From contig OX359247.1 of the NCBI GenBank assembly GCA_947179485.1, positions 54,471,131-54,535,130 on the forward strand: a stretch of DNA of 64,000 bases. The letters run 5' to 3'. Below the pieces are notes generated by a model. It saw nothing but the letters and a program-made list of their open reading frames with translations, was not told the origin of the DNA and did no database searches. The translations under genes and the position numbers were made by a program. Shown here piece after piece: positions 20,587 through 63,835 of this stretch. The DNA is from Allacma fusca (taxonomy: Eukaryota; Arthropoda; Collembola; Symphypleona; Sminthuridae). Position 1 is the stretch's first letter; every line of letters starts with the position of its first letter.

Positions 20587-20865
20587 TTAAAATCCACACC
20601 ATGACGGTTTTTTCCCATTGTGACGGCCACTGCATTGACACTGTCCCACTTTCGTCCCGGGTTTCATCTGAGGGCAGGTATTCGGGACTAGGACGCATCG
20701 TCCCCCAGCATACCCTTTACAAATGCAACGCTTCGTGCAGTCCTGCCACAAAATATTGTTTCCTGCTGAGCTCCAGCTGGTGCAACGGCTCCAGTCACTC
20801 CAACAGGATCCCTGGACCATGGCCACAACTGTGAGCGTTGCCATCAAAAATACGATGCTTTTCAT
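20587..20865 (-). CDS. Macin-family antimicrobial peptide precursor (macin1)
   Basis: Single coding exon of 92 residues. Residues 1-19 (ending VAMVQG) are a hydrophobic signal peptide. The mature part begins SCWSDWSRC and carries ten cysteines, with C-x3-C-x-C (CTKRCIC), C-x-C (CQC) and a terminal C-G-F. The opening CWxxWSRCT-W, then LW-x2-C and CxxRCxC, is typical of macins (theromacin, hydramacin), secreted antibacterial peptides best known from leeches, molluscs and Hydra. Ten cysteines is the theromacin-like number. A likely 5'-UTR intron acceptor (TTTTCAG) lies about 30 bases before the ATG, and a TATA box 210-220 bases before it. This is the only one of three macin copies here that is intact. 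Confidence 0.88.
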   Translation of the reverse strand: MKSIVFLMATLTVVAMVQGSCWSDWSRCTSWSSAGNNILWQDCTKRCICKGYAGGRCVLVPNTCPQMKPGTKVGQCQCSGRHNGKKPSWCGF

Positions 20866-21077
20866 TCTGAGTGACCGGTGGATTGGATTTGAACAACCTG
20901 AAAATTTTGTTGAAAATTTTCTATGAAATTATTTTTCAAAATTACTTCAATTCCAAATTTTACTTACGAAAAGATTTTGAACCGTTTCTTCAATAATTAA
21001 AATTTTCACTCCGTTTTCTTCAATGTGCACAGTTGAGGTGTAGCAGCTTTAAATGAAATGTTTAGGGGTTGTCGTCC

Positions 21078-21085
21078 ATTTATAT
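21078..21085 (-). promoter_or_regulatory. TATA box of macin1
   Basis: On the minus strand ATATAAAT lies about 215 bases before the macin1 ATG. An equivalent TATATAAAT stands before macin2 at 33589-33597. The distance leaves room for the inferred 5'-UTR intron. Confidence 0.45.
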
Positions 21086-21402
21086 GCTTCCCAATTTGTT
21101 GTTAAGTTTTGAGGAATTATTACTTATGCAAAGATTAGGTTACATTCCCACTAAATCAAACTTTGCATATAATGTATCATTTTACTGCAATTCCCAGGAA
21201 CGGCCCTTCATTAGTATTCTTTAAACAAATTATGTTAATTCAAGCTCTCTTTCCAAGTTCTAATCGTAATCGCATATTTATTTAGTTGATGAGTCAAATT
21301 ACGGATATTCATTGGACGAATAAATACTTTGTGGAAAAGCTGAATTTTGTAAACAATATTGGCCATCACAAATATAACTATAGTTAAGTTATAATAACTA
21401 TA

Positions 21403-21442
21403 GTAAACTCTTCACATGTATAGATACATGTGAAGAGTTTAC
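21403..21442. repeat. Perfect 19-bp inverted repeat with 2-base spacer
   Basis: Left arm GTAAACTCTTCACATGTAT and its exact reverse complement are separated by AG. It would extrude as a hairpin or cruciform. Two ACTATAGT-containing words flank it on the left. There is no obvious link to a gene; it may be the tip of an inserted element. Confidence 0.6.
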
Positions 21443-23442
21443 ACAATACTTAATAGCCCTTGCGCATCTGGGTTCCGGGGAACTCACAATCAGAGTAGCA
21501 ATTGCCTCATTCTTCGAACCGTAAAACATTTGTGCAGGCAACTTACAGTATCGCATACGATTAGGATGAGTGCCCTAAGTGACCCATGACATTTTTGTGT
21601 AAGTTCACGACCAATTCCTGGAACAACGTTTACATAACGTAAATCACAATTTATGTACAAAACCTCGCATACTGAGGTAAATAAGCTCTAACGAAGGGCA
21701 ATCTGAAACTTACAGGCTGAAGCTCAAACAAGTTTGTATATTGTTTATATAAGTTGCCGTGAGCTCACAGATCCCAAAATAAAATTAAGTTATGGTTCAA
21801 GACCTAATTGAATCCTGCTGTGTCAACTGTATAGAAAAGACATCCCAAACCTTTGAGTTTGAGCTTATAAATATTTATGTAACATGTAAGTTTGGGTTTG
21901 TTAAACGATCTGCCAACTCCCTAAAATAAAGACATGTTTGTTAAGTAAACCTACACGCGGAAGTTATCTACGAATTTCTGTGTATGAAGGAAAAAAGTGC
22001 TCCAAGCCAAATCCATTTTTTATGAAGCAAAGAATGGAAAAATAAAAGCAAAATTAATATCTACAGTAAATAATGTCCCCTTCTTTCCGCCTGTTTAAGC
22101 AATAGTCAGTGCAACCTCCGTTGAAAACCCCACAATGTGAAAGTATTCAATGACATTTCATCTGAATAAGTTCCTGAAACGTAGCTGCACTTGATGTTTT
22201 CAATATTCGTAGTTATTCATTTTAAAGCTAAAAATAGATCAATTTCTGACGTAAATCCTGTAATACAGTAGAAAATCGCTTGGGGAATATAGATAATAAT
22301 TTTAGGAAACAATAAAATCAATGTTCAACTAAAAGTGAAGATAGTTGGATTCATTGCCTCTGAAATCGATACAAAACCTGATACAGTGTGGAATGAAAAT
22401 TTCGTTCATCCTATTTCCATATGTCTATGATTTAAATCAATTTTTAGATAATAGTAATAATCGGACAAATTAAATTTGCCAGTAAAGTCCTTTGCAATAA
22501 AATCCCATTCATTTTGATACTACAAGCTAGCGAAGAATGACCTGCGATTTATTTGGAAAGCCAGCGTCCAATTTCGTCCAAGGGGCTTATGGTTACTTTT
22601 CGTTCTAGTTAATTTCATTTAATTATGTATTTAGTTAAATATTACAACAAATGCAGAGTAAAGTAACATTATTTTTCATGGCTCAAACTACAAAAATTGA
22701 GTGAGCTATTCCAGTTAGATGTTGCTTGTTCGGAAGCAGGAATTCATTCTAATATCTTTAAATCTTTCGAAATCCCAGCTCTCTTCCCGTTTCTGGTCCC
22801 GGGATTTGAAATATTCCATTAGTCAATGAAATTAATATTGTCATACACAGTATGAAACTAGCTATCTAAATGATGTGACAACAATTTGGGGGATATTTTA
22901 ATTGCAGTAATAAAACCGTTATTTCCTTGCTTTTACTGTTTGTTAAAATAGGTAGAATTAATTTTCGTTTGAATATCCATTTACCAGCCCTCCTGGGAAA
23001 GAGAGGCGAAATAATTAGAGCCTCTCTGGAGGCGAGTTGCGTGTAATTACTACGACAGGTCAGGTTAGAATATTCCTAGTTGTTTGATGCATAGCTATAA
23101 TCTATAATGGTAAACTTATCATTACTGCAATGAGTACTCAATCGATCGATCAAGTATAATGGCGCAAATCAAATCATGGTCGAGTTATATTCCTGTCTTG
23201 ATTAAACTGTAGAATACCCTATAAATCCGAAATAGCTTTAGGCAATAATGACTGTGCAAATAAAAGCAAAATAAATTTCCAACCGTTTAAACCAACATGA
23301 TAAGTACTTAATAGAATGGAATATAAATTCTTTCCACTCCAGTTCCAGTGACGTTTGGATTTACAGTAAAAAGTTCGGGCATGATTCCATTCAGCAATTG
23401 TGGCTGGAAAATTGCAGTGTACCATCGAAATTTCTTGCCGAA
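21443..23442. other. Intergenic DNA between macin1 and receptor A1; start of the duplicated unit
   Basis: From about 22,295 this matches the region from 38,086 onward in unit 2. It supplies the empty sites for the hAT element (ATTTAAAT at about 22,430) and for the CACTA-like element (AGTAAAGTAAC at about 22,660). Near 22,985-23,040 a small stem (AGAGAGGC ... GCCTCTCT) is kept, imperfectly, before receptor A2 (47,545-47,600). Confidence 0.55.
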
Positions 23443-25008
23443 ATGTTAACAAAGCATGAACTGCAATTTAATCGTAAAACCTACAAAATCCTGTCGCTCC
23501 TTCATCTAATTCCTTTTGAATGGGATAAAGAAGACCAGTTGATTTATAAAAGGGATTCAAAAGGAAATTATATTTGGAAATATTACTTCCTAATTATGCT
23601 CTTTCATTTAATTTTCCTTTTCTTTCGACTCTTTCAACATTTTACTATTGAAATAACAAACTTGTTTGAGATAGTTGAACAAATCATTTTCACAGCCTAT
23701 TTCTCCGTCACATTTTACGTTTCCGTACAAATTTCTTTGGTCGAGCCATCTCTTGCAACCGCTATTTTGAAACACATTCCTCAAAAAATTAACGAGTGTA
23801 AGTGCAAAGATTTAGACGTTCTTTTGTATTTTTTCTCTCACATGTCAAATCATGTAATTAATTAAGTACACACAAAAAGTGTCCATCAAATCCACTGCTC
23901 TTAAAAAGAATGATGTGAAAACCTTGGAGGCTCTGTTATGTAGTTACAGATTTTTAAATGGTTATTTTTTATATTCTTACAGAACCCCGAATTTTGTCTC
24001 CCTTACTTAGTCCGACATTATTTACTAAAATTTGAGTCAATGAGAGTAGCTTTTAGATTTGGTAGATCATTTTTTCTATACAAAACTACTAAATTATTAT
24101 TGTAATATAAATTGTAGGTTCATCCGATAATGTCTTGTCTCATTGGAAGGCGTACACAATTCAAGAGTTTCTCATCATTGCCCTTCCTTTTTTTATTTAC
24201 TTAGGAATTTACTTTTTCTACCCAGTTCTGTTTTTGATGCATCCCTCAGCAAAGTTTTTCTTGTCTTCTGTTTTCAAACTCAATTCGAATCAGCTTCCTT
24301 TGCTTCTCATATTTTGTCTGACAGAAGTTTGCATTATTTCAATTTTTGTTCCTGTGCCAATCCTCGGAATCTACATACAGCTTCTGTTTTTTGAAAACGT
24401 CACGCACAGTGTGAAAACCGCACTTGGGAATTTGAGGCAAGAAAAACCTTCATTTGGCATTGTATTTTTTGGGGGTGATTTATGAGTAAATACTAATTTG
24501 TGTTTTTTTTAGAAATTCAAAATATACTGATGCATCCGAAGCTGGAATTATTAAAGAAATCAAAACATTACGAGAACTGCAACTGTCAATTCAGAATTTC
24601 AATCAAGTCTTTTCAAACATCATATTGTCATTTAAAATACTTGCACTCACATTTGGTATTCTCTGCATTTTTGTTGCAATTAAAATATTCCGGACGAACC
24701 CGATAATAGCTCTACTTGAGTTGCTAATAGCAGCTGATGTAAATATTGTATTTCTGACCCTCTATGATCGTCCCTTCTTTATTCCATCGAGAATTGAAAG
24801 CCTCAAGAAAGCCGTACTTTTGACGTCAAGCGAATTACATAAAAGAGACCGTTTTTACAGGATGGTGCGTCAAACAGTGAGATCAATTCGACCTTGTGGA
24901 ATTAAAGTGGGTCAGTTCCATCTGTTTGAAAGGACTTCAACGCCAAATTATGTTAATTTTGTGAAACGCACCTTGCAGGGGATGCTAATATCTTTCCCTT
25001 ACGTTTAA
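23443..25008 (+). CDS. Chemoreceptor-like multi-pass membrane protein A1, 3 exons
   Basis: Exons 23443-23797, 24118-24436 and 24513-25008 give 389 residues. Intron 1 is GTAAGT-AG. Intron 2 (76 bases) uses a GC donor, AG|GCAAGA, which is the only donor that keeps the phase. There are six strong hydrophobic segments (about residues 45-60, 75-97, 127-150, 180-212, 250-275, 280-302) and a weaker seventh near the end, with a charged loop (KRDRFYRMVRQTVRSIRPCG) before it. Size, topology and tail (CGIKVGQFHLFERT) resemble the large seven-transmembrane gustatory/odorant-receptor-like families of arthropods, which are ligand-gated channels of sensory neurons. Ligand is unknown. The classical TYxxxxxQF signature is not evident, so the family call is less sure than for B. 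The ATG at 23443 matches the start of A2. Intact. Confidence 0.8.
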
Positions 25009-26201
25009 TGGCATTTGTGTATCTGCTTGCAATCCGGATAATCAAAGAGCTACTCCATTACTGAGCAAAAACTTATAAGGGGACGATTACGAATTGCTGA
25101 TATTTTAAAAGGTTATCACCAAGATAAAAATGCTCAAGTTTATTAAAATAGCCCTCCCGCTCACATTATTGGTCCTTGTGGCCCCAATATTTGACAATAA
25201 TTGTTGATGATACAAAATAAAATAAATTTCAATGAAATCTTGCTACAAACCCAGTACTTTGAATTTTTTTTATCAGGGCTTCAGATGCCAATGATAAAGT
25301 AATAATTTCGGATACCTCACGCAACTTCTCCAAACTTGCTCCCAGCTTCATTAGGACAAATTCACAATTATTTCCAACCTAGCACATAGCTCGTGAGGAC
25401 AAATGTCTAGCAAAAAAACGCCAAAACAATTTCCAACAAAACATTTCTGCGAGAATGAACAAAATTAAGAATCGTCATAGCAATCAATAATAAATTGCTG
25501 TTTGTGCTCCGATACACCTCAAGGACTTTCAACATTTTCTACGCATCCTTATTCTTAGTAGCTTCATATTTTGAAGGATTTTGGCCCGATATCTGCATAT
25601 TGTGCAGTCCATGCCACCCTCGCTTAACTGTTGGGCTAAACACCAGCCTGCCTGGGGTAGGTAAACGCCGTCGTCAGTCTAAAAGCAGATTTTATTTCTC
25701 TTTTCAGAACCTTCTGACCTTCAATTTAATCCAGGTGAATGAAGTAAATGTCCGAAAATTTGGTACTAAACTTGTTACGAACAGGTAAAATCAAATATTT
25801 TATGAGTCACTCCATCATGTGGGCCAGAGTGGGCAAATGATGAGGTTAACCCTTACACAAATTGGGTTCTTGCTCTGATGTTTACCCGTAGGTTTAACAA
25901 AGTTCTTAATCATGTAAACCGTCTTAGCCATTATTATTATTATGCAATAGAGTTTCTTACGATTGACCTGGCCTAATCAGAGTGTAAGTTCTGTTTTTGT
26001 TCCATTTTCCTAATCAAAATAATTACATCCATTATAATTGCTTTATAAACATATCCGTTATGCCGTGGTTTGAATACCGTGGGCAATTTTTAGGGGCGCA
26101 GTAAACGAAAGTTCCTTCAGTGGTAATCCGGATGTCTGATTATCTAAACCAATATCCCTGGAAAACTGTTTACATTGAAACTTGACCTAATCAGTCAGAC
26201 G
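25009..26201. other. Intergenic DNA between A1 and B1
   Basis: Paralogous to 49,565-51,954, and in part to 59,975-60,400. It contains the empty site (CTTAGTAGCTTC, about 25,555) of the Harbinger-like MITE found in unit 2. No gene. Confidence 0.5.
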
Positions 26202-26856
26202 CAGGCATGTGTAACCTCGTGTAGGTTTTCCATTACTGACGTCTAGTGATGAAGACAAAAGTGCCCCTCAGAATATTCCAAAATACTGTGTTTAAGGCAA
26301 ACCCGACGGCAAAAATGTTTGCAAGACCATAGCAGGAACTTAAATAATTTTTTTGAACCTCATTCAAGTAACAGGATACCCGGCTTAGGCTAAAATGGTT
26401 ACATCACGATTACCGCTGTTTGAACCAAACAAAATGTAAATCCACTTATGGCTTATAGTTTGTTGCTTTACTGCTAACATAAATATCCGGCGGGTACTGG
26501 AACGGTTAATACAATTCCCCGATATTCATAAATATTCAAAAATGCAGGACTTTCGTTGCAGCAGTATGTTTTAATCTAATTATATATTTTTTTTCTTTGC
26601 TTGGAACTTTTTAAGTTACCCATTTTACCTGTGCCGGGTATTATAAACCCCGGGGGCACCGCCCGGATGTCATTATTACGAAAATAACCCGACGCCCAGC
26701 AATCATTAAAACTTAGCTACTGGTATGGACTGATGAACACATTTCCACCGTGGGGTTTGCCTTAAACACAGTATTTCGCAAATAGCCTGGGGGACACTTT
26801 CGTCTTCATCACGGGACGTCACTTATGGAAAACCCACACGAAGTTACACATGCCTG
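26202..26856. mobile_element. Old MITE with about 110-bp inverted ends (CAGGCATGTGTAAC), copy 1
   Basis: The ends CAGGCATGTGTAAC are inverted over about 110 bases (AAGTGACGTCCCGTGATGAA within). Flanks GTCAGACG and GTCAGCAG are an imperfect 8-bp duplication, suggesting hAT type. The same element at the same place in unit 2 (51955-53647) shows that it inserted before the unit was duplicated. Confidence 0.65.
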
Positions 26857-28468
26857 GTCAGCAGCCTTGACTGACTCTGCACTTTAGTACTAGTTCCCGG
26901 TGCTTTTTACTTGTAATATAGGAATTAATAGCAGACGATTTCCTACACAAAAATAATTTGCCCCAGTAAACATTTTTTACTTCCTTGACATAAAGTCCTT
27001 TCTCCGTAAGAGGATCTATCTATTATAAGAACATTCTCTTTGTAGAATTAAACATGGTCTGACACGTTTCCATTTGACACACATAAATGTGTCTGCTTGT
27101 TACAGCATGTCATTATGAGAGTCATATTTTGTTCCTTGTAGGAGCGTTTTTATAAAGTGAGTGAACTTTATATGCATGCATAAGCTCAATTCAATTCATA
27201 CATGTCGAAAGTATGCGTATGCATATACACATAATGACATTTTGGTTTCTTCAATACGCCGATATTGATAAAACTAAACGAATTAAACCATTGAAATACC
27301 ATTTTATTACTATTAGCCCCGTAGATAAAAAAAATGTCATGCTAACAATAAGAAGTTACATCTAGGTGAGTTTATTTTTCCATGGCATCGAAGCATTCAT
27401 TAACTTAATGGAAAAAAATAACTCAGTATTCCAAGTTTACACAAGGCATAAAAACTAATGAAAAGAGTATTCTTGGACATGGGCTTGACTTCTACAACAA
27501 CTAGCCTCATCAATGACTGAAAAGATTAAATATTTTAAAACTTTTTGGGGTTCTCTTTTTGGCATTGAAATTATTGCTAGAACCAGCGATGATTCTTATT
27601 ATAGACTTGGGAGCAGCATCGTTTAAAATTAAAACTGGAAATCGTGTCCCTCTGTGGTTTTCATTTGTGCATCATTATTAGGGCGGCTAGAGGTGCACAA
27701 GTTCTATTCAATCAAAATGCTGGAAAAGCAGTCCCGCAGAATGCAAAAGCAAACTAATCAGCTGGATTTAACTGCAAAAATTTTGCAAAAGTATCTTCAT
27801 TTTGGCTATTTGGTGATGTTGGTGCCTTTTAAAGGAAGACATATTCCTTGTGGCCGATTTGAATTTGTTTACCGAGGAGCAACATCCAAAGTAAGGAATT
27901 TCGAATATGTTTAATAATCATGTACAATTTTTGAAAAAAGTCAAATTAAATTTTTGAATAACAATAATTATGCTGGTATTTTTCTTGTGCACAGTTTACG
28001 ATGCTGGCAGTTCAAATTTTGTGCTTCTGCAACCAGGCCTGGTGCTTGGCCTTTTACCACTTGATATTTACAAGACATAATGATATAAATAAAACTATTC
28101 GTGTCACCATCACTCTTCCAACGATTGCTTATAATTCCGTTTTGGTGTTTATTCTTTGGAACAAAAAATCCGACTATGAAGAGCTGTTGAACCGCGTGAG
28201 GAGTATCACTGAAAAATTGAACGCTCTGGGAGCAAGATTGCCTTCCAAAACTTGCGTATATGTTCCTATCATTTATTTTCGCTCATGAGCCTTTGCATAA
28301 ATAATTATGTATATTTGTCCTATGGTTTTGTAGCACGCCATTCAATGGAATAATATATCACGTAATATAATACAATTTCCTCATCTGTAGATTAACGTTG
28401 GAATCTTATTTGTCATCTCTCATACGGTCTTGTCAGTCACTTTGGATGTAATGATTTCCGGGTGGAAT

Positions 28469-29468
28469 CAGAGCTGCGCACAAGTACAAGTAGTACACGA
28501 GTATTTCAAGTCAAGTTCGCGTTCGGGTCGTGGTCAAGTAAATAAATTTAAAACCATGAACGGTTCGGGTCGTGTTCAGGTATTTCATCGACTTGACCAT
28601 GATTTCTTACCTCAAGTCAAGTTCGTGGTCAAGTATAATTATTTTACTTGAACCATAGTACCTGGTCATGTTCAAGTAAATATTAAAAAGTACTTGACCA
28701 CGAACTTGAGTTTTTCGTGTACAAGTTCAAGTAATTTTGTTTGTGCAATTCTTCATGGCTGAGGGAGTTTTCAATTCACTTACGATTCACTGTACTAAAT
28801 GAAACTTAAAACGGCATTTAATACATCACTTTAAGCGGCATTTGTTAATTTGTTCGTGTACACAAATACAAAAGAAAGCTCAACATTCATATGGCTCCGT
28901 GGAAATTGATTTAAAAATGTTAGCACCCATGTTTATAATAGTATGTGACAACAAAACCTAAAAGGAGTTCTGTGTCCCCAAAAATGTCAACTGAGTCACC
29001 AGACCCACCCGGTACACGAAATCAGAGTAGATCTGCAGTGTACAATCGTTCTACATTCATTGAAAGGAACCAAAAATACAACTATTATTTTTAGAGGCGG
29101 TTGCTAGCAAAATGCTGGGTGAAACCTAGTGTGTTAGAAACCCAGGTTCGCTTTCATTAGAAATATAAATTCAATAAAACTTAAGTATTTTGATGTCCAA
29201 TGGATTACTTGAAAGTACTTGAAAGTTCAAGTTCATGGTCAAGTTCGGGTCATGGTCAAGTCAAGTTGAAGTTGGACCCGAAACGCGCGTATAAAATCAT
29301 GGTCAAGTAATATGAGAATTACTTGAAAACCCGAACTTGTTTCATTCAAGTATTACTTGAACTGAAAATGTCAAGTTCGGGTAATCTTGAAATACGTACT
29401 TGAGAAGTCGGGGTCAAGTCAAGTTCGTGGTCGGATCTTTATAAATACTTGACCCGAGCGCAGCACTA
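28469..29468. mobile_element. hAT-type MITE, 1,000 bp, inside exon 3 of B1
   Basis: Flanked by an exact 8-bp duplication GGTGGAAT (28461-28468, 29469-29476). Ends CAGAGCTGCGC and TAGTGCTGCGC are inverted. Both flanks are packed with CAAGTTC, TCAAGTA and TTCGGGTC words, the same architecture as the hAT element at 38207-42444 but with a different word. No transposase. The uninterrupted sequence in B2 is the empty site. Confidence 0.92.
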
Positions 29469-30539
29469 GGTGGAATCAAGCCAAGGCTTTGGATACAAAT
29501 GGAAATACTGGCAATACGTATCCTTACGGTAGCTATACCGAGATTTTAACTCTACTAAATGTGGATTCGTCTTCAGCAGGTTAATTTTTTTAATTCAAAA
29601 TTTATAAATGTTAAAACTGTAATAATTATAACAATAATTGTTTCTTTCATAGTTTCATACTCCATCGCCATTTTGAGCACATGCTTGAAAACGTATGAGC
29701 ATTTAATCACACGATATGCGGATCAGCTATGCTTAACCCTTGTCATTTCGCTATACATGATCACCAGGTGTTTGCTGAATTTTTTGGCGGATTTTGAGAA
29801 ATCCAACCCGAAACATAAGGACGTAAGTTTTATTAACTGTGTAGGGTATAATATGCCACTACACCTCTGAGCTCATTAAAGTAGCATACAAAAAATCATC
29901 TGTGATCAGGACCAAGTGCTAAGACAATAAGGGAGAGACGACACTACTTGATGTAATATCAATATCTGATAATTAACCATATGTTCCCTTATAAATAGAT
30001 ACTCTAAAATGTTTATACATATACCAGTCAGCGTTGGTTATCCTTATTATTAAAGGGCACTTCGTTTATTTACAGTTCCGCGCGTTTATAGTGCAATGGC
30101 CTCACACAATGCCGAAAAGGTGGCATGCCAAGCACTCCTTATTACTAACGAGCACTACCTGTCCATTCATTTAAAGCGCTACTCTTAATATAAGCGCGCA
30201 CGATTTAGGCATACAACAAGTCTCTACGACAGGGCTTGATTCGTAAGCCGTTTGGCTTTTAATTTCTACAATCACACTACCACATCTTCAAGTTTAATCG
30301 TCCCTGTGAAGCACAGGGCGTTTACTAGTAAGTCAGTAAATGTTAGTAGAGAAGCAAGAAGTTAGGCGCATTAAAACATTTTTAGATGAACTCATCTACG
30401 TTACATACAAACACAGGCATCCTTTTGCACTGTTGGTGTTATGTTATGATCTAATGATTTATTAAAATTCCCGCACGTTATCAGTATGGATTTACATTTT
30501 TTGACAAACCGTTAGCACTCATATTCAAATTACACATGT

Positions 30540-30840
30540 GCAAGTTCAATTCATGCAATTATAGATGGCGCAAGCTTAACATCCCGGTTTCCTTACATAT
30601 GTATGGGCATGTGTTGATAGATTACCTCATTTATTTTTATGAGAACAAACGAATGATCTAATCTCCTTCAAAAACAATGGGCTTCTTACATTCGGGTTCA
30701 TTTGTCTCTACAAAAAATTTGAAGTGTCTGGTCTCATTGGTTCGACATTTATCCTGCAGACAACCAGACACGTAGACACACAGACATCCTGGCAATTCCA
30801 GCAGCGTTTTTCAGATTCGCTTCGCCCCTAAAAATTTGGA
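30540..30840. repeat. Dispersed repeat within intron 4 of B1
   Basis: Contains ATGAGAACAAACGAATGATC, a CAGACAACCAGACAC tract and a final GCTTCGCCCCTAAAA. The paralogous intron of B2 carries it too (about 56,310-56,620), and a diverged relative lies at about 12,040-12,330 outside the cassette. SINE-like size, but no promoter boxes seen. Confidence 0.4.
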
Positions 30841-32049
30841 TTCCCACATTTTTAAAATCATTTTTTTAATTCGAAAAATATCGTTCCAAATCAATGAATA
30901 ATTTCAGAGTGGTCAATAGACTAGAGGCAAGGAAAGCCGAGAATGTTTTAGAGAAGCTGTCACTCCAATTTTTTCGGAGTAAAACAAATCGGAAGGTTTT
31001 ACTCATCAGGAAGTTTTTAATGGATCTGTTCCTTTATGAATAAGTTCCTGCTTAAACTGCTCGGGAATGTTTTTTAACACCCTGCACACTAACAATATAT
31101 TCTCACATAATTAAACCAAGATTGAGCTGTAATATTGCTTATTTCAATCATTTAGGTAATTAACGTTATCAACGATATTTTTGACATATCGGACATGATC
31201 GAAGAAATTCATGGGCTCTTGATCTTCTGGTGTTGCTTCAGCTTCCTTCCCTACTACTCTTACATGATCAAAGAAGTGTACCGAAATACACCGGGATCTC
31301 GACCCCAGTTTGCAACTTATATTCTGACGTTTAATTTAGTCATGTGGATTTCGGCTGAAACCAACTCAAAAGTAAATTTCAATAACGACCATACATATTT
31401 AGTGTCTGTAGTTAATAACCGATTTGTGATCCCTTGTAAAACTTCCTCATAATGATTATTAACCTAAATCACCATATACTCCCCTTTTGCATTATGGTTT
31501 TGTTAACTGGAAAATTCTCAAATCCAAAAAATCAAAGGGTTTTTATAAAATGCAAAACGATGATTAAAAACCATGTATTTTATTTTAGGATTCTTTTTTT
31601 AAAACACCTCAGAGCTTAAACGTTACGATTTGTCAAAGTTTTGAGTTTCTGTCACAGGGGAATCACAGATCGTTGGAAACTTTCAAAAATTCTAAAGATT
31701 TAAGTTATACAATTTGATGGGTACATAATATTTGATGAAGATTAACGGCGTCGCAAGTTGGCTTCGGAAAACAAGTGCAACGAGAAATGCTGGACAAATG
31801 GAACTTTGCGACAGAATTTATGAGGACCAGATCAACATTATATTGCATCAAATATCATTTGGTGGTTTCGGTATCAAAGGAAAAGCTTTTACAATTACGT
31901 ACGGACTTGTTGGAAGTGTAAGTTTTTAAATTACTAATTTCACTATTTCCAAAAGCTCTCGAAAGATTGTCTATAGTACGTGTAATGTCTTTTAGCTGGC
32001 GAGTTTGGTCATTACATATGCGGTAATTGTATCTCAAGTATCACAATGA

Positions 32050-33369: not shown

Positions 33370-33588
33370 TCTGAGTGAACAACGGACTGGCAAATAGATT
33401 TTACCCACCTAAAAAATAAACTTCTTAAAATATGTCCAAAAATTTTAATTTAAAGATACTAACCAAAATTTGTACTTACTATAATAAATTATTTTTGCTT
33501 CTTTGTGTTGAACCGTTATCCTCTACTTGAGTCTGTACGGGTGAAAGCAACAATTCTGAATGCAATTTGTTAGGGGCGATTTTCTAAA

Positions 33589-35112: not shown

Positions 35113-35114
35113 TA

Positions 35115-50147: not shown

Positions 50148-50150
50148 TTA

Positions 50151-51344: not shown

Positions 51345-51954
51345 TTAGTAGCTTCATATTTTGAAGCATTCTGGCAAGATAGCTGCATATTGCTCAGTCC
51401 ATGCCACACTAGCTTAAATGTTCGGCTCACCACCAGCCTGCCTGGGGCAGTCCAAAACCAGATTTAATTTCACTTTTCTGAACCTTGGGACCTCCAATTT
51501 AACCCAGGTGAATGAAGAAAATTTGGTACTAAACTAGTTACGAACAGGCGAAATCAAATATTTTATGAGTCACTCCTTCATGTGGGCCAGAGGGGGCAAA
51601 TGATAAGGTTACCCCGTACCCAAATTGGGTTTTTACTCTGATTCTTACCCGCAGGTCCAACAGAGTTCTTAAGCATGTCAACCGTCTTAGCCATTATTAT
51701 TATTCAATAGAGTTCCTTACGATTGACCTTGTCTAACCTGAGTGCAAGTTTTGTTTTTGATACATTTTCCTAATAAAAATAATGACATCCATTATACTTG
51801 CTGTATAAGCATCCGTTATGCCGTGTTTTGAATGATGTGGACAATTTTTAGGGGCACAGTAAATGAAAGTTCCTTAATGCGGGATTGTATGATTATCTAA
51901 ACCAATTTCCCTGCAAAACTGTTTACATTGAAACTTGACCTAATCAGTCAGAAA

Positions 51955-53647
51955 CAGGCATGTGTTGCTTCGTGTATAGGTCTTCCAGCAGTGACGTCCC
52001 GTGATGAAAAAAAGGTGTTCCCAGGGTTGCACAAATGAAAATGCCTTTGGTTTTATGCCTGCCCTCCTGAAAATGCCCAAAACGCCGATAATGCCCTTAA
52101 AAGGACTTACTCTGAAAATGCCCGGCATTTTGGGCATTTTCGACAGGCATTTTGGGCATATTGGGCGTTTTTATAGAAACTTTTATACACTATGACCATT
52201 ATTGCTCCTTTAGCGAATATAAGGGAGTTTTTCATAGCATAATCAAACCCATCCAGGTATAGAAAATGTTATAGTTGATTTAAAGAAATTAATTCGTCTA
52301 ATTCGTTACTTATGGCCAGTGGTTATTTCAGTAATCCTTAAAAAAAATTAAGCCCCAACGGAGTTACAAACATTCAGCGCTGTACATTATAAAAAACTTT
52401 GGAGCTTCCGTAGAAAATTTTGTGTCGACTTTGAAAATTGCATTTATTCAGCCCTAGTAAAAGTAAAACAGTGTAATAATTCTAGGAGTTCAAAATGTAA
52501 CAATAAATACATTTAGATGATGACGAGTTTTGAAGCTCACAAACAAAGATATTTTTAATCTTTTAACAAGTATTTTATCTTTTTGTGTTGCATCTTTGCC
52601 GGAATATGTTAATTTGTTCTTGAAGTCTAAGTAATTACAGACAGGATGAACAAATGAATTTTTACAACAATACAAGTAAAATAGAATTATTATTATTATT
52701 TCATAAATATGTCTATATCAACTTGCTCCAAGTTTCAACCTTTTTGGAAGCAGTTTGTTTCTATAATTTTGTCACGTAATCCAGTTGAATATTAAAATTA
52801 TTTGCTAAATACTGTTTTGTGACTTATTTTACAAAATTAGCAGGTAGCTAAAGGCACATATTTAAAAAACTGAAGCAAATATGTCGAAAATGCATGCTCT
52901 AGGCTGAATATGCCCAAAATGCCCAAAGTGCCATAGATGCCCGAAATGCCATGAAATGAAAATGCCCAAAATGCCATGAAATGAAAATGCCCAAAATGCC
53001 ATGAAATGAAAATGCCCAAAATGCCCTGGCATTTTCAATTGTGCAACCCTGGGTGTTCCCTCAGGCCATTTTCGAAATAATGTGTTTAAGGCAAACCCAA
53101 CAACGCAAATATGATCAACACCATACCACGAGCTTAAATACATTTTTTGGACCCATTCAGGTAACAGGATACCCGGCTTAGGTTAAAATGGTTACATCAC
53201 GAGTACTGCCGTTTGTGTTGGCCAATTATGACCAAACAAAATGTAAATCCACTTATGGTTTATAGTCTGTTACTTTAATGCAAACACGAATATCCGGCGG
53301 GTACTGGAACGGGTAATACAATATATATTCATAAATATTCAAAAATGCGTGACTTTCGCTTCAGCAATATGTTTTAATTTAATTAAATGTTTTTTATCTT
53401 GGCCTGCAATTTTACAATTTACCCATTTTACCTGTGCCGCGTATTATAAAACCCTGGGGCAATGTCCGGATGTCATTAGCACGAAAATAGTGCGACGCCC
53501 AGCAATCATTAAAACTTAGCTCCTGGAAAACATTTTCGTCGTCGGGTTTGCCTTAAACACAGTATTTCTCAAATAGCCTGGGGGGCACTTTTGTCTTCAT
53601 CACGGGACGTCACTTATGAAAAACCTACACGAAGTTACACATGCCTG
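51955..53647. mobile_element. Old CAGGCATG MITE, copy 2, split by a nested element
   Basis: Same inverted ends and same site as the copy at 26202-26856. Flanks (GTCAGAAA, GTGAGAAG) are remnants of an 8-bp duplication. It contains a younger 1,030-bp hAT MITE. Confidence 0.65.
52022..53051. mobile_element. hAT-type MITE, 1,030 bp, nested
   Basis: Exact 8-bp duplication GGTGTTCC (52014-52021, 53052-53059). Inverted ends CAGGGTTGCACAA. Both ends carry arrays of TGCCCAAAATGCC words. No transposase. Confidence 0.9.
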
Positions 53648-54508
53648 GTGAGAAGGCTGGTCTGGCTCTGCACTTTATTACGAATTCCCGGTGATTTTTA
53701 CTTGTAATATAGGAATTGATAGCAGACGATTTCCTACACAAAAGTAATTTACCCCAGTAAATATTCATTTACTTCCTTGACTTATAAAGTACTTTCTCCA
53801 TCGAAGTATCTATTATAAGAATATTCTCTCTGTAGGATTAAACATGGTCTGACATGTTCCCATTTAACACACATAAATGTGTGTCTGCTTGTTGGAGCAT
53901 GTCATTAATTATGAGAGTCACATTTTGTTCCTTGAATAAACGCTTTTATAAAGTGAGTGAACTTTATATGCGTGCATATGCTCAATTCAGTTCATACGTG
54001 TCGAGACTGTGTATGTATATAAACATAATGACATTATGGCCTCTGTAATACACTGATATTAATAAAACTAAACAAATTAAACTATGGAAATACAATTACT
54101 ATTAGCCCCGCGTAGATAAAAAAAAATGCCATGCTAACAATAAGAAGTTGCATCTAGGTTAGTTTATTTTTCCATGGCATCGAAGCATTCATTAACTTAA
54201 TGGAAAAAAATAACTCAATCTTCCATGTTTACACAAGGCGTAAGAACTTATGAAAAGGGTATACTTGGACATGGACTTGACATCTACAACAACTAAGCTC
54301 ATCAGTATCAGAAAAGATGAAATATTTTAAAACTTTTTGGGGTTGTCTTTTTGGCATTGAAACTATTGCTAGAACCAGCGATGATTCTTTTTATAGACTT
54401 GGGAGCAGCATCGTTTAAAATTAAAACTGGAAATCGTGTTCCTCTGTGGTTCTCATTTGTGCATCATTATTAGGGCAGCTATAAGGCCACAAGTTCTATT
54501 CAATCAAA
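53648..54508. other. Region upstream of B2
   Basis: Paralogous to 26,857-27,716 and, in part, to 60,400-61,104. The last 200 bases are strongly conserved in all three copies and probably include the B promoter and 5' UTR. No separate gene is supported. Confidence 0.5.
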
Positions 54509-57500
54509 ATGCTGGAAAAACAGTCTCGCAGAATGCAAAAGCAAACTAATCAGCTGGATTTAACTGCAAAAATTTTGCAAAAGTATCTTCATTTTGGCTA
54601 TTTGGTGATGTTGGTGCCTTTTAAAGGAAGACATATTCCTTGTGGCCGATTTGAATTTGTTTACCGAGGAGCAACATCCAAAGTAAGGAATTTCGAATAT
54701 GTTTAATAATCATGTACAATTTTTGAAAAAAGTCAAATTAAAATTTTTGAATAGAAATAATTATGATGGTATTTTTCTTGTACGCAGTTTATGATGCTGG
54801 CAGTTCAAATTTTGTGTTTCTGCAACCAGGCCTGGTGCTTGGTCTTCTACCACTTGATATTTACAAGACACGACGATTTAAATAAAACTATTCGTGTCAT
54901 CATTACGCTTCCAACGATTGCTTATAATTCCGTTTTGATATTTATTCTTTGGAACAAAAAGTCCGACTATGAAGAGCTGTTGAACTGTGTGAGGAGTATC
55001 ACCGAAAAATTGTACGCTCTGGGAGCAAGACTGCCTTCCAAAACTTGCGTATATGTTCCTACCACATATTTTCGCTCATAAAAAAATATTTTATAAATAA
55101 TTGCATATGAGCTACGTATGGTTTCGTACGCCATGCAATGGAATATGTAACATGATACAATTTCCTCATCTGTAGATTAACGCTGGAATCCTATTTGTCA
55201 TCTCTCATACGGTCTTGTCAGTCACTTTGGATGGAATGATTTCCGGGTGGAATCAAGCCAAGGCTTTGGATACAAATGGAAATACTGGCGATACGTATCC
55301 TTACGGTAGCTATATCGAGATTTTAACCCTACTAAATGTGGATTCGTCTTCAGCAGGTTAATTTTGTTAATTCAAAATTTATAAATGTAAAACTGTAGTA
55401 ATTAAAACAATTATTGATTCTTCCATAGTTTCATACTCCATCGCCATTTTGAGCACATGCTTGAAAACGTATGAGCATTTAATCACACGATATGCGGATC
55501 AGCTATGCCTAACCCTTGTCATTTCACTATATATGATCACCAGGTGTTTGCTGAATTTTTTGGAGGATTTTGAGAAATCCAATCCGAAACATAAGGACGT
55601 AAGTTTTATTAACTGTACAGGGTTTAAAATACCATTATACCCCTGAGCTTGTTAAAGTAGCATACTCAAAACCATCTGTGATCAGCACCACGTGCTAAGT
55701 CACTAAGGGCGTGGCGGTACTACGTGATGTAACAGCAATAGCTGGTAACTATACGTTCCCTTATGAATATCTTAAATGTGGTGACTGTAAGTCAGTAAAA
55801 TGGTTAGGCGCATTCAAGCATTTTTGGATAAACTCATCTACGTTATATACAAACACATGCATCCTTTTGCACTGTTGTTATCCTTATTACTAAAGAGCAC
55901 TTTCTGTCCATGTATTTAAAGTTCCGCGAGTTCATAGTTCAATGGCCTCCCACAACGCCCAAAATGTGGCATTCCCAAGCAATTCTTATTATTAACGAGC
56001 ACTACCTGTCCATTTATGAAAAGCTCAGCGCGCTACTCTTAAAATAAGCGCAGACGATTTAGGCATACAAGATACAAGTCTCCACGACAGAGCTTGATTC
56101 GTATCTTCGTACGCCGTTTAGATTTTTATTTCTACGCTCATACTACCGCTTCTCCATATAATTGTCCCTGGGGGGCACAGGGCTTTTACTCGTTAGATAT
56201 ATGTTGATCTAATGATTTATTAAAATTCCCGCGTGTAGAAGTTATTAGTATGCATACAATTTTTTTAACAAAACGTTAAACGCTTCTAACAAACTCATAT
56301 TCAAATTACACATGTGCAAGTTCAATTCATACAATTATAGATGGCGCAAGCTTAACATCCCGGTTTCTCTACATACATATGTATTGGCATGCGTTGATAG
56401 GTGACCTCATTTAATTTTATGAGGTCAAACGAATGATCCGATCTCCTTAAAAAATAATATGATTCTTACATTTTAGTTCATTTGTCTCTACAAAAAGTTT
56501 TTAATGTTTGGGGCAATTGGTTCGGCAGTTATCCTGCAGACAACCGTACACGCAGACAAAAGCAGACACCCCTGGAATTCCAACAGCGTTTTTCAATTTC
56601 GCTTCGCCCCTTAAAATTTGAATTCCCCCATTTTTATAACCATTTATTTATTTCGAAAAAAAATCGTTCCAAATCAATGAATAATTTCAGAGTAGCCAAT
56701 AGATTCTAGAGGGAAGTAAAACCGTGAATGTTTTAAGGAAGCTTACACTTTTTTTTGAGCAAAGCAAATCAGAAGGTTTTACTAATCAGGAAGTGTTTAA
56801 TGTATCTGTTCCTGTATGAATAAGTTCCTGCTTGAGCTGGGCGGGAGTGTTTTAACACCTTGTACACATTAACAATTTATTCTCGCATGATTAAACTGAG
56901 ATTAAATTGTAATATTCCTTATTTCGAACGTTCAGGTAATTCACGTTATCAACGATATTTTTGACATATCGGACATGATCGAAAAAATTCATGGGCTCTT
57001 GATCTTCTGGTGTTCCTTCAGCTTCCTTCCCTACTACTCTTACACGATCAAAGAAGTGTACCGAAATATACCGGGATCTCGACCCCAGTTTGCAACTTAT
57101 ATTCTGACGTTTAGTTTAGTCATGTGGATTTCGGCTGAAACCAACTCAAAAGTAAATTTCAATAACGCCCATACATATCTAGTGTATGCAGTTAATGAAC
57201 GATTTGAAATTCCTTGTAAAACTTTCTCATAATGAGTATTAACCTAAATCACCATACCCCCTTTTGCATTATGGTTTTTTTAACACTGAAAAATTCTCAA
57301 ATCCAAAAAATCAAAGGGTTTTTATAAAATGCAAAACTATGATTGAAATCCGTGTATTTTATTTCAGAACATTTTTTTTTAAAACCTCAGAGCTTAAATG
57401 TTACGACTTGTCAAATTTTGAACTTTTATTTATCAAATAAAGGTATTTCGTAAGGATAATTTTAAAGTTTTGCATTTATGTCAAAGGGGAATCGCAGATC

Positions 57501-57880
57501 GTTGGAAACTTTCAAAAATTCTAAAGATTTAAGTTATACAATTTGATGGGTAAATAATATTTGATGAAGATAAACGGCGTGGCAAGTTGGCTTCGGAAAA
57601 CAAGTGCAACGAGAAATGCAGAACACAGGGAACTTTACGACAGAATTGATGGTGACCAGATCAACACTATATTGCATCAAATATCATTTGGAGGTTTCGG
57701 TATCAAAGGAAAAGCTTTCACAATTACTTATGGACTTGTTGGAAGTGTAAGTTTTTAAATTACTAATTTCACTATTTCCAAAATCTCTCGAAAATCATTG
57801 CCTATAGTATGTCTAATGTCTTTCAGCTGGCGAGTTTGATCATTACATATGCGGTAATTGTATCTCAAGTATCACAATGA
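54509..57880 (+). CDS. Gustatory-receptor-like gene B2, 7 exons, intact
   Basis: Exons 54509-54682, 54788-55048, 55176-55356, 55429-55598, 56936-57151, 57570-57746 and 57827-57880, all GT-AG with consistent phases, join to 410 residues, the usual size of arthropod gustatory receptors. A short polar N-terminus (MLEKQSRRMQKQ) is followed by seven hydrophobic segments: exon 2 has two, exon 3 one, exon 4 one, exon 5 two, exons 6-7 the last. The C-terminus is the family hallmark: HQISFGGFGIKGKAF ahead of TM7, then ITYAVIVSQ (TYxxxxxQ). These are ligand-gated cation channels of chemosensory neurons; the ligand is unknown. It belongs to a different subfamily from A1/A2. Only complete B copy in the window. 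The acceptor of exon 6 (TTTGATGAAG) has a poor pyrimidine tract and is chosen because it keeps the phase. Confidence 0.88.
56310..56620. repeat. Dispersed repeat within intron 4 of B2
   Basis: Counterpart of the repeat at 30,540-30,840: ATGAGGTCAAACGAATGATC, a CAGACAACC tract and a terminal GCTTCGCCCCTTAAAA. It arrived before the unit duplication. Confidence 0.4.
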
Positions 57881-58905
57881 ATCATCATGGAATTCCGATA
57901 AAGGATTATCGACCGGAAGTCCAAAGTATAAGTGTGGGAGCGTCCAAGTACAATGTGCAGACTTTGCAGGTCCATGTGCAGTCGGCGCCACTTTGTGCTT
58001 ATACGTACATGTACATAGGTGAAGGATTTGTTATCAAGTAATTCACTTCAATGGGATGCGGATTTTTCATCATCGACAAATAGATAGATACTTATGTTGG
58101 AAATAATTACATAATTTTTACAACAGTTTGGGCATTCACATGTTGTCCGTAATTATGCATGAATTTTTTCAGCTTTCGAGAAGACCCATGCACAAGGATT
58201 TATTTGATCATATTAGAGTCAAATCACGCTATGTGTAAGGAATGACTATTACAGCAAATTTGCATGGCAGATAACCCTATTGAATATGGAGCTGGATACA
58301 TTGACAATAAGTTATTTTTCGATTTGTCAAGCCAATTTAACTTTTGACAGTCTAAGTCTAAATGTTAATTTAAATCTGTCTAAAATAATTTACAAATGTA
58401 TCTTATGCCAACTTCTTGAAAAGCCCTTTAAATTCACTCCACATGATGGTGATATTTTAGCTTTAGAAATAGAAACTGCGTTTATTTTTTTTTTCAAATT
58501 CGGCTGTTTTCAAAAATCATGACTTTGCGATGTGTTCTTGAAAACTCTAAAGTTTATGGGATGGAACGGGATGAAACGTTAGAAAAGTATGGAAGACAAT
58601 TTTCTCAACAGTAAAGGAAACCACAATTTTTTACCATCTGTACTTAAATGGATTTGGGGGTGGGGATATTCCATTTGATTATTACAATATTGTAGTTAAT
58701 ACCTACGTTTGGATGTTTTATTCATTGGATGTTAAATTTAATGTTGGGAAATTAAATTTTATTTTTGATGAAATAAAACATTGATTCGAATAATCCAAAC
58801 CCTTTGACTACAGAAATTCGATAAAAAAACTGTGGTAAAATACTTAAGTGAAAACATAAATACTACATTGGCTGACTTAGTGTCCCATGTGAGGTTTGCA
58901 AATGC
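57881..58905. other. Intergenic DNA between B2 and macin3
   Basis: Paralogous to 32,050-33,090. No gene. Confidence 0.45.
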
Positions 58906-59142
58906 TTACAGTGCGCACCATCCCGGTTTTGTTCCATTGTAATGACCACGGCATTGACATTGTCCCACTTTCGTCTCCTCTGACAGTAAAGCACAGGTAT
59001 TTGGAACGAGGACGCATCTCCCCCCAGCATACCCTTTACAAATGCAACGCTTCGTGCAGTCCTGCCACAAAATATTGTTTCCTGCTGAGCTCCAGCTGGT
59101 GCAACGGCTCCAGTCACTCCAACAGGATCCCTGAACCAGGGC
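58906..59142 (-). pseudogene. Macin3, 5'-truncated
   Basis: Retains codons matching macin residues 15-92, with all ten cysteines and an intact stop (terminal WCAL). The first 14 codons of the signal peptide, the ATG, the 5' UTR and the TATA region are gone. Compared with macin2, about 350 bases are missing and homology resumes at about 59,150. Without a start and a signal peptide it should be dead unless a new upstream exon is used. Its mature part is clean, so the deletion is recent. Confidence 0.82.
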
Positions 59143-59768
59143 TTCCCAGGCCCAGGAATGGTTTTTTTATTATTGTATTAGTGGATCAAGTTCTGGTTTC
59201 ACGGTTTAAGCATATGTATTTGTAGACATTGTAGAGAAGTTCAGAAGCAAAACTATACAAGTTCATTGAACAGAAGAAACTGTGGTTGCTTAATTGCAGT
59301 AGTAGAAACAACCCGGGAGCCATTGTCAGTTGATTTTCCAACCAAGAAGGCATGTTCACATTTTTACAATTATTCAATCCATTTTGAATCCAGTGCATTT
59401 TTGACCTCATTACTGTACCCACCTCCCAATACCTTTGGGTTTTTACCCGTGAATGGCCCTTTCTTGGGACGAGTAATTATGATGAAATAAATGAATTTAA
59501 AAAAATGGATTTGGGTCACATTATGTCCGTATGCTCCTCATCTAAAATATTTTAGCTGATAATGTCAAAAATTCACCCTACGTTGATATAATTATTACGG
59601 ACTGAGATTAAAAGTAGCCAACGGAAAGTATCAATTAATTCTAAATTTTAATTGATAAGAATAATAATTATTATTAAAGCATCTGCAACTTACTAATTCC
59701 TTAATAATACCAGATAACAATAACAAGCGAAGAAGCGAATCTCACAGCGTTTTAATAAGTTATGCGGG
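59143..59768. other. Intergenic DNA, end of unit 2
   Basis: Paralogous to about 33,670-34,288 and 35,113-35,140, with the empty site of the pogo-like MITE at about 59,705. No gene. Confidence 0.5.
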
Positions 59769-59957: not shown

Positions 59958-61104
59958 CTTTACCATCTGCCGTCTGCGGCAGGTAATCTTCATTCTAAAA
60001 ACAGATTTTACTTCTCTTTTTTGAACCTTGGGACTTCCAATTTAATCCACGTGAATGAAAAAAGGTCAGAAAATTTGCTACTAAACTTGTTACGAACAGG
60101 GGGAATCAAATATTTAATGAGTCACTCCATTTAATGCAAACGATTCGGTTGCCCAGTACACAAATTGGGTCTTTACTCTGATTCTTACCCGCAGGTCCAA
60201 CGGAGTTGTTTAACATATCAACCGTCTTAGCCATTATTATTACAATAGAGTTCCTTACAATTGACCGGGCCTAATCAGAGTGCAAGTTTTGTTTTTGTTC
60301 CAATTATCCAATCAAAGTATTGACATTCATTATATTTTCTCCATAACCATCAGTTATATCGTCGTTTGAGTGATGCAGACAATTTTTAGTAAAAAACAGT
60401 TCCTTATTGGGACAGTCGTGATGTGAGGCTCTATTAGAAGAACATTCTCTCTGTAGGATTAAGCATGGTCTAAATTTAACAAACGTTCATGTTTGACACT
60501 TCTGCTTGCTAGAGCATGTCATTATGAGAGTCACGCGTTTTGTTCCTTGTAGGAGTGCTTTTATAAAGTGAGTGAACTTTATATGCATGCATATGCTCAA
60601 TTCAGTTCATACATGTCGAGACTATAATGACATTATGGCTTCTTCAATGCTGATATTATTAAAACTAAACAAATTAAACTATGGAAATACAATTTAGCCC
60701 AGTAGATAAAAAATGTTATGCTAACAATAAGAAGTTGCATCTAGGTTAGTTTATTTTTACATGGCCTCAAAGAATTCATTAACTTAATGGAAAAAAATAA
60801 CTCAATCTTCCATGTTTACACAAGGTGTAAAAACGAATGAAAAGGGTATACTTGGACATGGACTTGATTTCTAAAACAACTAGCCTCATCAATATCTGAA
60901 CAGATGAAATATTTTAAAACGTTTTGGAACTGTTTTTTTTTGTTTTCCAATTATTCCTACAATTAGAACCAGCGCTAGTTCCTGGTATAGATTTGGGAGC
61001 AGCACCTTTTAAAATTAAAACTGGAAATCGAGTCCCTCTGTGGTTTTCATTTGTGCATTATTACCAGGGCAGCTAGGGGTGTCCACAAGTTCTATCCAAT
61101 CAAA
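59958..61104. other. Start of unit 3
   Basis: Matches unit 1 from about 25,680 and unit 2 from about 51,455, so unit 3 begins between the positions of genes A and B and never contained A. Further deletions relative to units 1 and 2 are present. Confidence 0.5.
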
Positions 61105-61310
61105 ATGCTGGAAAAGCAGTCCCTCACAATGCAAAAGCAAACTGATCAGCTGGATTTGGCAAAACATTTGCAAAAGTATCTTCATTTTGGTTATTTGGTG
61201 ATGTTGGCGTTTTTCAAAGGAAGAAATAGCCCTTGTGGTCGATTTCCATTTGTTTACCGAGGAGCAACATCCCAAGTAAGGGATTTCGAATATTTTTGAT
61301 AACCATGTAC

Positions 61311-61645
61311 TGTCGAGTCAAGCCAGGCTGATACTTTACCAATTAAGGACAGGTGTGTTACGCACGCCTCTCTTGCCTCCGATAGGCTTATGCTAGTTAC
61401 CATAGAGTGACTGTCAACCATCGTTTACTTGTCAACCATAGATTGACTCTGTATATGTAATGAGTGAGTGAACCATCGAGTTTCAATTTCGTAATCATGT
61501 TGCAAGATATTTACATTGCATATGCATACATTCTTTTATTTCGCGCTGAAACGCATGAAAAATTATCGGCCAATCGCAGGCAAGAGAGGCGTGCGTAACA
61601 CACCTGTCCTTAATTGGTAAAGTATCAGCCTGGCTTGACTCGACA
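61311..61645. mobile_element. MITE with 68-bp perfect inverted ends in intron 1 of B3
   Basis: Ends TGTCGAGTCAAGCCAGGCTG are identical and inverted over 68 bases. Compared with B1 and B2 (CATGTACAATTTT) the target duplication is either GTAC, or TA if the ends are read as CTGTCGAG. The superfamily is therefore undecided (a TA reading suggests Tc1/mariner). No ORF. The perfect ends suggest a recent insertion. Confidence 0.85.
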
Positions 61646-61935
61646 GTACAATTTTTGAAAGGTGTCAAATGTGAATTTTTGAATAGTGATAATTATGATG
61701 GTGCTTTTGATGCACGCAGTTTATGATGCTTACTGTTCAAATTTTGTGTTTCTGCAACCAGGCTTGGTGCTTGGTCTTCTACCACTTGATATTTGCAGCT
61801 TTACAAGGCACAATGATATAAATAAAACTATTCGTGTCACCATTACGCTTCCAACGATTGCTTATAATTCCGTTTTAATATTTATTCTTTGGAACAAAAA
61901 ATCCGACTAGCAAGCCATGCAATGTAATATGTAAC

Positions 61936-62365
61936 CAGGCATGTGTAACATCGTGTAGGTTTCCCATAAGCGACGTCCCGTGATGAGGACAAAAGTGTCC
62001 CCTCGGGCTATTTCTGAAATACTTTGTTTAAGGCCAAACTGACGACGCAAATGTGTTCAAAACCATACCAGGACCTTAAATAATATTTTTTGGGGCCATT
62101 CGGGTAACGGGATACCCGGGTTAGGTTAGCATGGTTAGATCACGAATACTGCCGTTTGTGTTGACCAATTTGGACCGGACAAAATGGAAATCCAGTTAAG
62201 GCTTCTAGCCAGTTGCTCTACTGCTAACACAAATACCCGGCGGGTATGGAAACCGGGTAATACAATACATTTTACATGTGCCGGGTGTTATAAAACCCGG
62301 GTGTAATGCCCGAATGTCATTGGCACGAAAATAGTCTAACCCCCAACAACCATTTAAACATATTT
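61936..62365. mobile_element. Partial CAGGCATG MITE, copy 3
   Basis: Starts CAGGCATGTGTAAC and follows the inside of the copies at 26202 and 51955 but lacks the right end. It lies in the B3 exon 2 to exon 4 gap, so it marks the deletion junction there. Confidence 0.55.
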
Positions 62366-63835
62366 CTGCAGCAAAAGTGACGAATTTCTGAATATTTATG
62401 ATCACCAGGTATTTGTTAAAATTTTGACGGATTTTGATAAATAGTACGTAAGTTTTATTAACTGTACTAGGTATAAACAACGTATAAAAACAAATTCGTC
62501 ATAAATTAATAAAATTATGTCAGAGTTGCCAATAGACTGTAGAGGAAAGGAAAGCCGAGATTTGTTTAGGGAAGCTTTCCCACCAATTGTTTTTGGAGTA
62601 AAACAAATCGAAAGGTTTTACTCATCAGGAAGTTTTTAATATATATGTTCCTGTATGAATAAGTTCCTGCTTGAGCTGCGCGGGAATATGTTTTAGCACC
62701 CTGTACATGCTAACAATTTATTCTCACATAATTAAACCGAGATTGATTGTAGGTGATTCACGGTATCAACGATAATTCTGACATATCGGACATGATCGAA
62801 GAAATTCATGGGCTCTTGATCTTCTGGTGTTGCTTCAGCTTCCTTACCTACTACTCTTCCATAATCAAAGAATTGTATCGAAATACACCGGGATCTCGAC
62901 CCCAGTTTTCAATCTATATTCTGACATTTAATTTAATCATGTGGATTTCGGTTGAAACCAATTCAAAAGTCATTTGAATAACGACCATACATATTTAGCG
63001 TCTTTAGTTAATGAACGATTTTAGATTCCTTCTAAAACTTCCTCATAATGAGTTTTAACCCAAAGAAACTTTTGCCCTATGGTTTTGTTAACACTAGAAA
63101 ATTCTCAAATCCAATAAATCAAAGGGTTTTTATAAAATGCAAAAATTATAATAATTGCAAACCGTTTATTTTAAATGAGAACATTTTTTTAAAACACCTC
63201 AGAGCTTTGTGACATTATTTATAGTGACCAGACCAACACTATATTACATCAAATAACATTGGGAGGTTTTGATATCAAAGGAAAAGCTTTCAAAATTACA
63301 TATGGACTTGTTGGAAGTTTAAGTTTTAAAATTACTAATTGTTTCCAAAATCTCTCAAAAATGATTGTCTGTAGTATGTGTAATGTTTTTTAGCTGGCGA
63401 GTTTGATCATTTCATATGCGGTAATTTTATCTCAAGTCTCACAAAGAATCATCAGAGGATTTCGGTAAAGGATTATCAGCCGGAAGTTCAAACTATAAGT
63501 GTGGGAACGTCCAAGTATGTACATTGTACAGACTTTGCAGATCCATGGTCCATGTGCAGTCGGCTTATATGTAGATGTACATACGTTAAGGATTTTTTAT
63601 CAAGTAATTCACTTCAATGGGATGCGGATGTATCATCATTGACAACTAGATAAATAATCATGTTGGAAATAATTACATAATTTTTGCAACAGCGTGTGGG
63701 TATTCATACCTAATAATCACCCGTAATTATGCATGAATTTATTCTGCTTTCGAGAAGGCCCATGCGCAAGGATTTATTTGATTATATTATAACCAAATCA
63801 CGCTATAAGAAATGACTATTACTATGACAGCAAAT

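Follow-up and report, generated by a model that had tools for sequence, protein, structure and literature searches.

Macins have been recorded in annelids, cnidarians, molluscs and nematodes, and millipede and onychophoran sequences carry macin-like cysteine patterns yet do not group with the macins, according to the macin passages of PMC5116183, PMC10506718 and PMC11767717. No springtail is named in those passages or in the corresponding ones of PMC7203481. The family (PF14865) includes hydramacin-1 (2K35) and theromacin (2LN8), whose structures have been solved. Here we describe macin genes of the springtail Allacma fusca, which lie on chromosome 3 in a tandem array together with two kinds of gene for multi-pass membrane proteins, A and B. 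The analysed window comprises 64,000 nucleotides (GCA_947179485.1, contig OX359247.1, positions 54,471,131 to 54,535,130). Coordinates are those of the window unless a chromosome is named, and further copies were sought in the window extended by 50 kb on its upstream and 150 kb on its downstream side. The linkage of macins with receptor-like genes is best read, and very probably so, as passenger linkage through tandem block duplication.

Heterogeneous tandem block duplications, segmental events that carry unrelated neighbours along, resemble the array in their collinear genes and spacers, in the agreement of sister copies across a block, in the decay of single members and in probable gene conversion. 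The array differs from them in gene content alone, combining an antimicrobial peptide with receptor-like genes; as an event, it is of an ordinary type with an unusual content.

The gene order in the window is M1-A1-B1-M2-A2-B2-M3-B3, where M denotes a macin; the macins are on the minus strand and A and B on the plus strand. A comparison of the window with itself revealed collinear paralogous blocks from 22,863 to 63,836, genes and spacers included, which bears out the tandem co-amplification proposed in a first-pass annotation of this sequence. Seven successive pieces of 22,863-34,164 and 47,421-59,640 are paired at 78-91% DNA identity, and a third, partial copy occupies 59,987 to 63,836. Since the longest paired pieces measure 2-3 kb each, chance is no explanation for the repeats, and the paralogy of most spacers indicates that whole blocks were duplicated. 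The claim that intergenic DNA is paralogous throughout had to be dropped, the region of 34.3-47.4 kb being mostly a separate insert. The proposed macin-A-B order does recur; however, A is missing from the third unit, the block duplicated most recently is A-B-M, and the array outruns the window, with M4-A3-B4-M5 following on its 3' side within 21 kb and M5 ending at 85.4 kb.

That the youngest duplicated block is A-B-M, not M-A-B, can be read from the sequence identities. The youngest pair consists of the block from A1 to M2 and the block from A2 to M3, with sister identities of 93.7% for A1-A2, 94.4% (exons 1-2) and 86.9% (exons 5-7) for B1-B2, 93.3% for M2-M3 and 82.7% for the B-M spacer. The values for A, for exons 1-2 of B and for M agree across the block, as is expected if A-B-M was copied as a single piece. 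Whether cut as M-A-B or as A-B-M, no unit retains an intact set of M, A and B. In the proposed course of events a macin, a member of the A family and a member of the B family would by chance have formed the founding neighbourhood on chromosome 3, unequal exchange would have multiplied it to four partial units and a terminal macin, and point mutations, deletions and insertions would then have eroded the array.

The macin identity given in the first-pass annotation is confirmed by the score of M1 against the Pfam Macin family (33.8 bits, curated cut-off 27) and by its ten cysteines, nine of which fall in the theromacin-aligned stretch and all nine of which coincide with theromacin cysteines, the tenth lying beyond the alignment. 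Among the sequences of solved structures M1 matched hydramacin-1 (E 5e-9) and theromacin (E 6e-5), and it is like them in the CWSDWSRC...LWQDC core, the cysteines and the hydrophobic N-terminus, a feature that M1, M4 and M5 share as judged by eye. The intact macins are predicted to be secreted CS-alpha-beta antimicrobial peptides; the AlphaFold model of M1, with a mean pLDDT of 37, is too low for use of its fold. The Allacma macins differ from the rest of the family in their springtail host and in the grouping of all five copies with receptor-like genes in a single array. The coding part consists of one exon. M3 lacks the first 14 codons, and upstream of it are two in-frame stops with no ATG in between. 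A genome-wide search for the family (16 candidates scored) gave five matches, all over the cut-off and all in the array, and a protein search to E 10 gave nine places, five of them in the array and the other four at E 0.04 or worse. Ratios of non-synonymous to synonymous substitution (dN/dS, NG86), rough for sequences this short, were 0.24 for M1-M4, 0.40 for M1-M5 and 0.56 for M4-M5, and those with the pseudogene M2 were 0.89 (M1), 0.39 (M4) and 0.45 (M5).

A gene conversion tract probably covers the macin exon of M4 and M5. Mismatches between the two number 27 over the 641 aligned sites of 65,364-66,005 and 183 over 1,030 sites in the surrounding DNA (Fisher p 6e-18, a generous value, as the borders were picked after a sliding-window view), and the DNA on either side of this tract of ~640 bp is about 82% identical. 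The differences within the tract amount to 12 of 276 coding sites and 14 of 334 sites in the 5' non-coding DNA; the excess identity is thus equal in both, for which selection on the protein is no explanation. Such a conversion tract would mean that the array was still recombining after duplication. M1 resembles the other macins over the coding exon alone (20,585-20,874), with near flanks at 43-66% relative to M2 and M4, and more distant DNA of the M1-A1 spacer pairs with the M4-A3 spacer at 76%.

A1, A2 and A3 have the exon lengths 355/319/496 bp in common, and all frames are open. The identical exon lengths noted earlier for the A1/A2 and B1/B2 pairs thus extend to A3, and they hold for exons 1, 2, 4, 5, 6 and 7 of B1 and B2, failing at exon 3 of B1, which contains a 999-bp insertion. 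The pairwise dN/dS values of A1-A3 (0.16, 0.23 and 0.24) show A to be under constraint at the protein level. A genome search with the A exons, in which the best 106 of 1,486 candidates were scored, counted 154 matches; among the 150 listed, nine are in the array and 141 elsewhere, and the genome-wide macin search found no macin at these other loci. With a distant A relative as query at least 154 matches were obtained (146 of 1,119 candidates scored). Six equal-scoring matches to this relative are regularly spaced at ~3,571 bp in 46099421-46117718 of chromosome 3; this is probably a receptor-like gene in a tandem array of recent origin. As a separate observation, intron 2 is of the GC-AG type in A1 (24437-24512), A2 (48994-49068) and A3.

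Only one B copy, B2, is intact. The insertion in B1 is bordered on both sides by the 9-bp repeat GTGGAATCA (28462-28470 and 29470-29478) and is 99.6% identical to 94711-95714, a copy 66 kb downstream, and is therefore probably recent. Exon 3, read as genomic DNA, meets a stop at codon 87; outside it B1 has no stops, and its dN/dS to B2 is 0.26 with exon 3 left out. In B3, exon 6 was detected from residue 21 onward only, and B4, which has a stop and frame shifts, yielded no exon 2. In a genome search with B, 24 of the 26 matches fell within the array. On chromosome 3, 61976641-62021509 holds seven exons on both strands that resemble the last-but-one exon of B (one of them served as query).

A and B are plausibly chemoreceptors of the gustatory type known from insects, in divergent form. 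Like arthropod gustatory receptors (PF08395, 7tm_7) they are 390-410 residues long, are similar in the spacing of their hydrophobic spans, have T-x6-Q or T-x6-S-F near the C-terminus and occur in tandem arrays and as a large family; unlike them they have no 7tm_7 match, and A is without a C-terminal intron. Hydropathy indicates six spans in A and five strong ones, or seven at a lower cut, in B, compared with five to eight in eight 7tm_7 genes of this genome. The spans of A1 start at residues 49, 81, 137, 180, 261 and 289, those of one of the 7tm_7 genes at 60, 98, 162, 205, 303 and 335. A phase-0 intron ahead of the last exon is typical of gustatory receptors, and in B2 the C-terminal TYAVIVSQ lies on a separate last exon behind such an intron. 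The rule T/S-x6-Q-F was used by Wu et al. for the C-termini of springtail gustatory receptors (PMC5644144); B, with TYAVIVSQV, has T-x6-Q (the Q and not the F), and A, with TLQGMLISF, has T-x6-S-F (the F and not the Q). Collembola are described as having no odorant receptors (PMC6080948).

Neither A nor B matched 7tm_7 at E up to 10, both are absent from the 53 7tm_7 places found in this genome (111 of 238 candidates scored), and searches with A, B and relatives of either in Pfam and the PDB gave no result. Two DUF families, at E 0.002-0.003 and each in one of seven members, were taken as chance. The profile of A returned nothing from the PDB chains, a test of low power, since a profile built from genuine 7tm_7 genes of Allacma gave a single chance match (E 4.8). 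Comparison of profiles of A, B and the 7tm_7 genes, built from 4-7 sequences each, yielded no alignment, and the AlphaFold model of A exon 3 (mean pLDDT 47) was too poor for a fold search. The "two chemoreceptor types" of the first-pass annotation accord with the layout, the C-terminal motif and the family size and drew no support from the Pfam and profile tests. We describe A and B as chemoreceptor-like and refrain from assigning them to the gustatory receptors. The missing matches and the poor exon model would fit other multi-pass membrane proteins, in which case the block duplication would stand and the label "chemoreceptor" would fall. The span spacing of A, so near that of a 7tm_7 gene of the same genome, argues against this, as do the C-termini, the phase-0 intron of B, the large and dispersed A superfamily and the low power of the PDB and profile tests, and we consider it unlikely, if worth keeping in mind.

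Because the linkage was copied in blocks whose members decayed independently, its repetition counts as one event multiplied, and we infer that the association of macins with receptor-like genes is a passenger effect without function. The first-pass annotation had suggested a meaningful cassette, possibly with shared regulation. Such a cassette, in which receptors tuned to microbes or tainted food were kept beside co-regulated macins and the unit was amplified by selection, would be in line with the repeated M-A-B order and with purifying selection on the A copies. It is nevertheless very improbable: the genes decay separately so that all three are intact in no unit, A has multiplied elsewhere with no macin found there, and a working unit is therefore unsupported. 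M and A stand back to back with their start codons 2,578, 14,634 and 3,481 bp apart, so that a short common bidirectional promoter is ruled out by distances of 2.6-14.6 kb, and B and M, ~1-2 kb apart, point toward each other with their 3' ends adjacent. In the 2 kb upstream of each macin, scanned for NF-kB-like motifs, no strict GGGRNWYYCC site was found at M1, M4 or M5 and no relaxed motif at M1, M3 or M4, which is weak evidence either way. Several observations nevertheless favour the cassette or otherwise weigh against passenger linkage. Macins and close B copies are almost confined to the array, which could reflect a lasting association; the relaxed motif, for which 0.22 occurrences per 2 kb are expected, is present in one copy ahead of M5 and in two ahead of the pseudogene M2; three macins and three A genes are still open, with A clearly constrained, so that parts of the array appear to be in use; and the founding linkage may be old, the comparison covering one springtail genome. 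A slightly smaller chance still is given to a macin locus lastingly tied to and co-regulated with microbe-sensing receptors. Conversion would there homogenise the effector copies as the receptors turn over, and the peptide effector would be inherited and multiplied together with a taste-type signal as a single module. Linkage or co-expression in other springtails, if found, would make this a testable sensory-defence module.

Near-identical tandem repeats are prone to misassembly, and uncollapsed haplotypes could mimic them, yet the copies differ by 4-25% in the compared segments and by insertions, and the genome is reported to have been built from 80-fold HiFi reads with a quality value (QV) of 58.7 (PMC10427803), so that an artefact is scarcely credible. 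As to where the macin came from, its patchy record (in cnidarians, annelids, molluscs and nematodes; PMC5116183, PMC10506718, PMC11767717), the single locus and the coding part in one exon would suit horizontal transfer into the springtail lineage. This is improbable, though less so than the cassette, as the macins reported from nematodes, another ecdysozoan phylum, make descent with loss sufficient, and the array is situated inside a 66-Mb chromosome with other genes on both sides. A hexapod macin appears to be unreported: no report from a springtail or from Collembola was found in the literature, with most subscription journals outside the search, and among the titles listed none was on tandem linkage of a gustatory receptor and an antimicrobial peptide in springtails. 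A survey of springtail antimicrobial peptides, queried with an arthropod peptide database, lists five families, and the string "macin" is absent from the available part of its text (PMC10051947). A hexapod macin extends the known range of the family, and the array offers a clean case of unrelated genes co-amplified as passengers, with decay of members and probable conversion on the peptide gene.

Table 1. Features of the array in window coordinates; positions above 64,000 are beyond the window
Feature	Position	Strand	Remarks
M1	20590-20865	-	macin coding exon, 92 aa, intact; Pfam Macin, structure-sequence matches, translation
A1	23443-25008 (exons 23443-23797, 24118-24436, 24513-25008)	+	3 exons, 389 aa, intact
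B1	27717-32049	+	7 exons recognisable, exon 3 interrupted; exon-by-exon tblastn
Insertion in B1 exon 3	28471-29469		999 bp
M2	33094-33369	-	macin pseudogene, two in-frame stops
M2-A2 insert	34290-47420		~13 kb, largely outside the repeat unit
hAT transposase remnant	38641-38979	-	in M2-A2 insert
Open reading frame	43243-45234	-	663 codons, in M2-A2 insert
A2	48003-49564 (exons 48003-48357, 48675-48993, 49069-49564)	+	3 exons, 389 aa, intact
B2	54509-57880 (exons 54509-54682, 54788-55048, 55176-55356, 55429-55598, 56936-57151, 57570-57746, 57827-57880)	+	7 exons, 410 aa, sole intact B copy
M3	58909-59142	-	macin domain lacking the 5' part, with neither start codon nor signal peptide
B3	61105-63444	+	broken; exon-wise tblastn: exon 2 shifted and shortened, exons 3-4 not found
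M4	65,395-65,670	-	macin, open, 92 aa
A3	69,151-70,887	+	389 aa, open
B4	74,983 to about 84,000	+	broken, in pieces
M5	85,096-85,371	-	macin, open, 92 aa

Upstream of the array a tandem pair of UDPGT genes (Pfam; UDP-glucuronosyl/glucosyltransferase) is located on the plus strand at 7726-9606 and 16122-18034, with ~80% DNA identity, and an open frame with a UDPGT-like start lies ~49 kb upstream of the first of them, beyond the window. Three consecutive minus-strand frames of 2,204, 2,419 and 2,202 codons, together ~20 kb, occupy 1-3302 and run on upstream of the window; a 1,100-residue piece of the last of these had no Pfam match. No RNA families or transfer RNAs were found in the window.

Within the insert between M2 and A2, we infer that the long open reading frame is probably transposon-derived. 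Pieces of 35.1-38.0 kb pair with DNA behind M5. Finally, a 0.86-kb repeat is present at 10727-11586 and 34269-35114, the two copies being 92% identical and the second lying at the edge of this insert.

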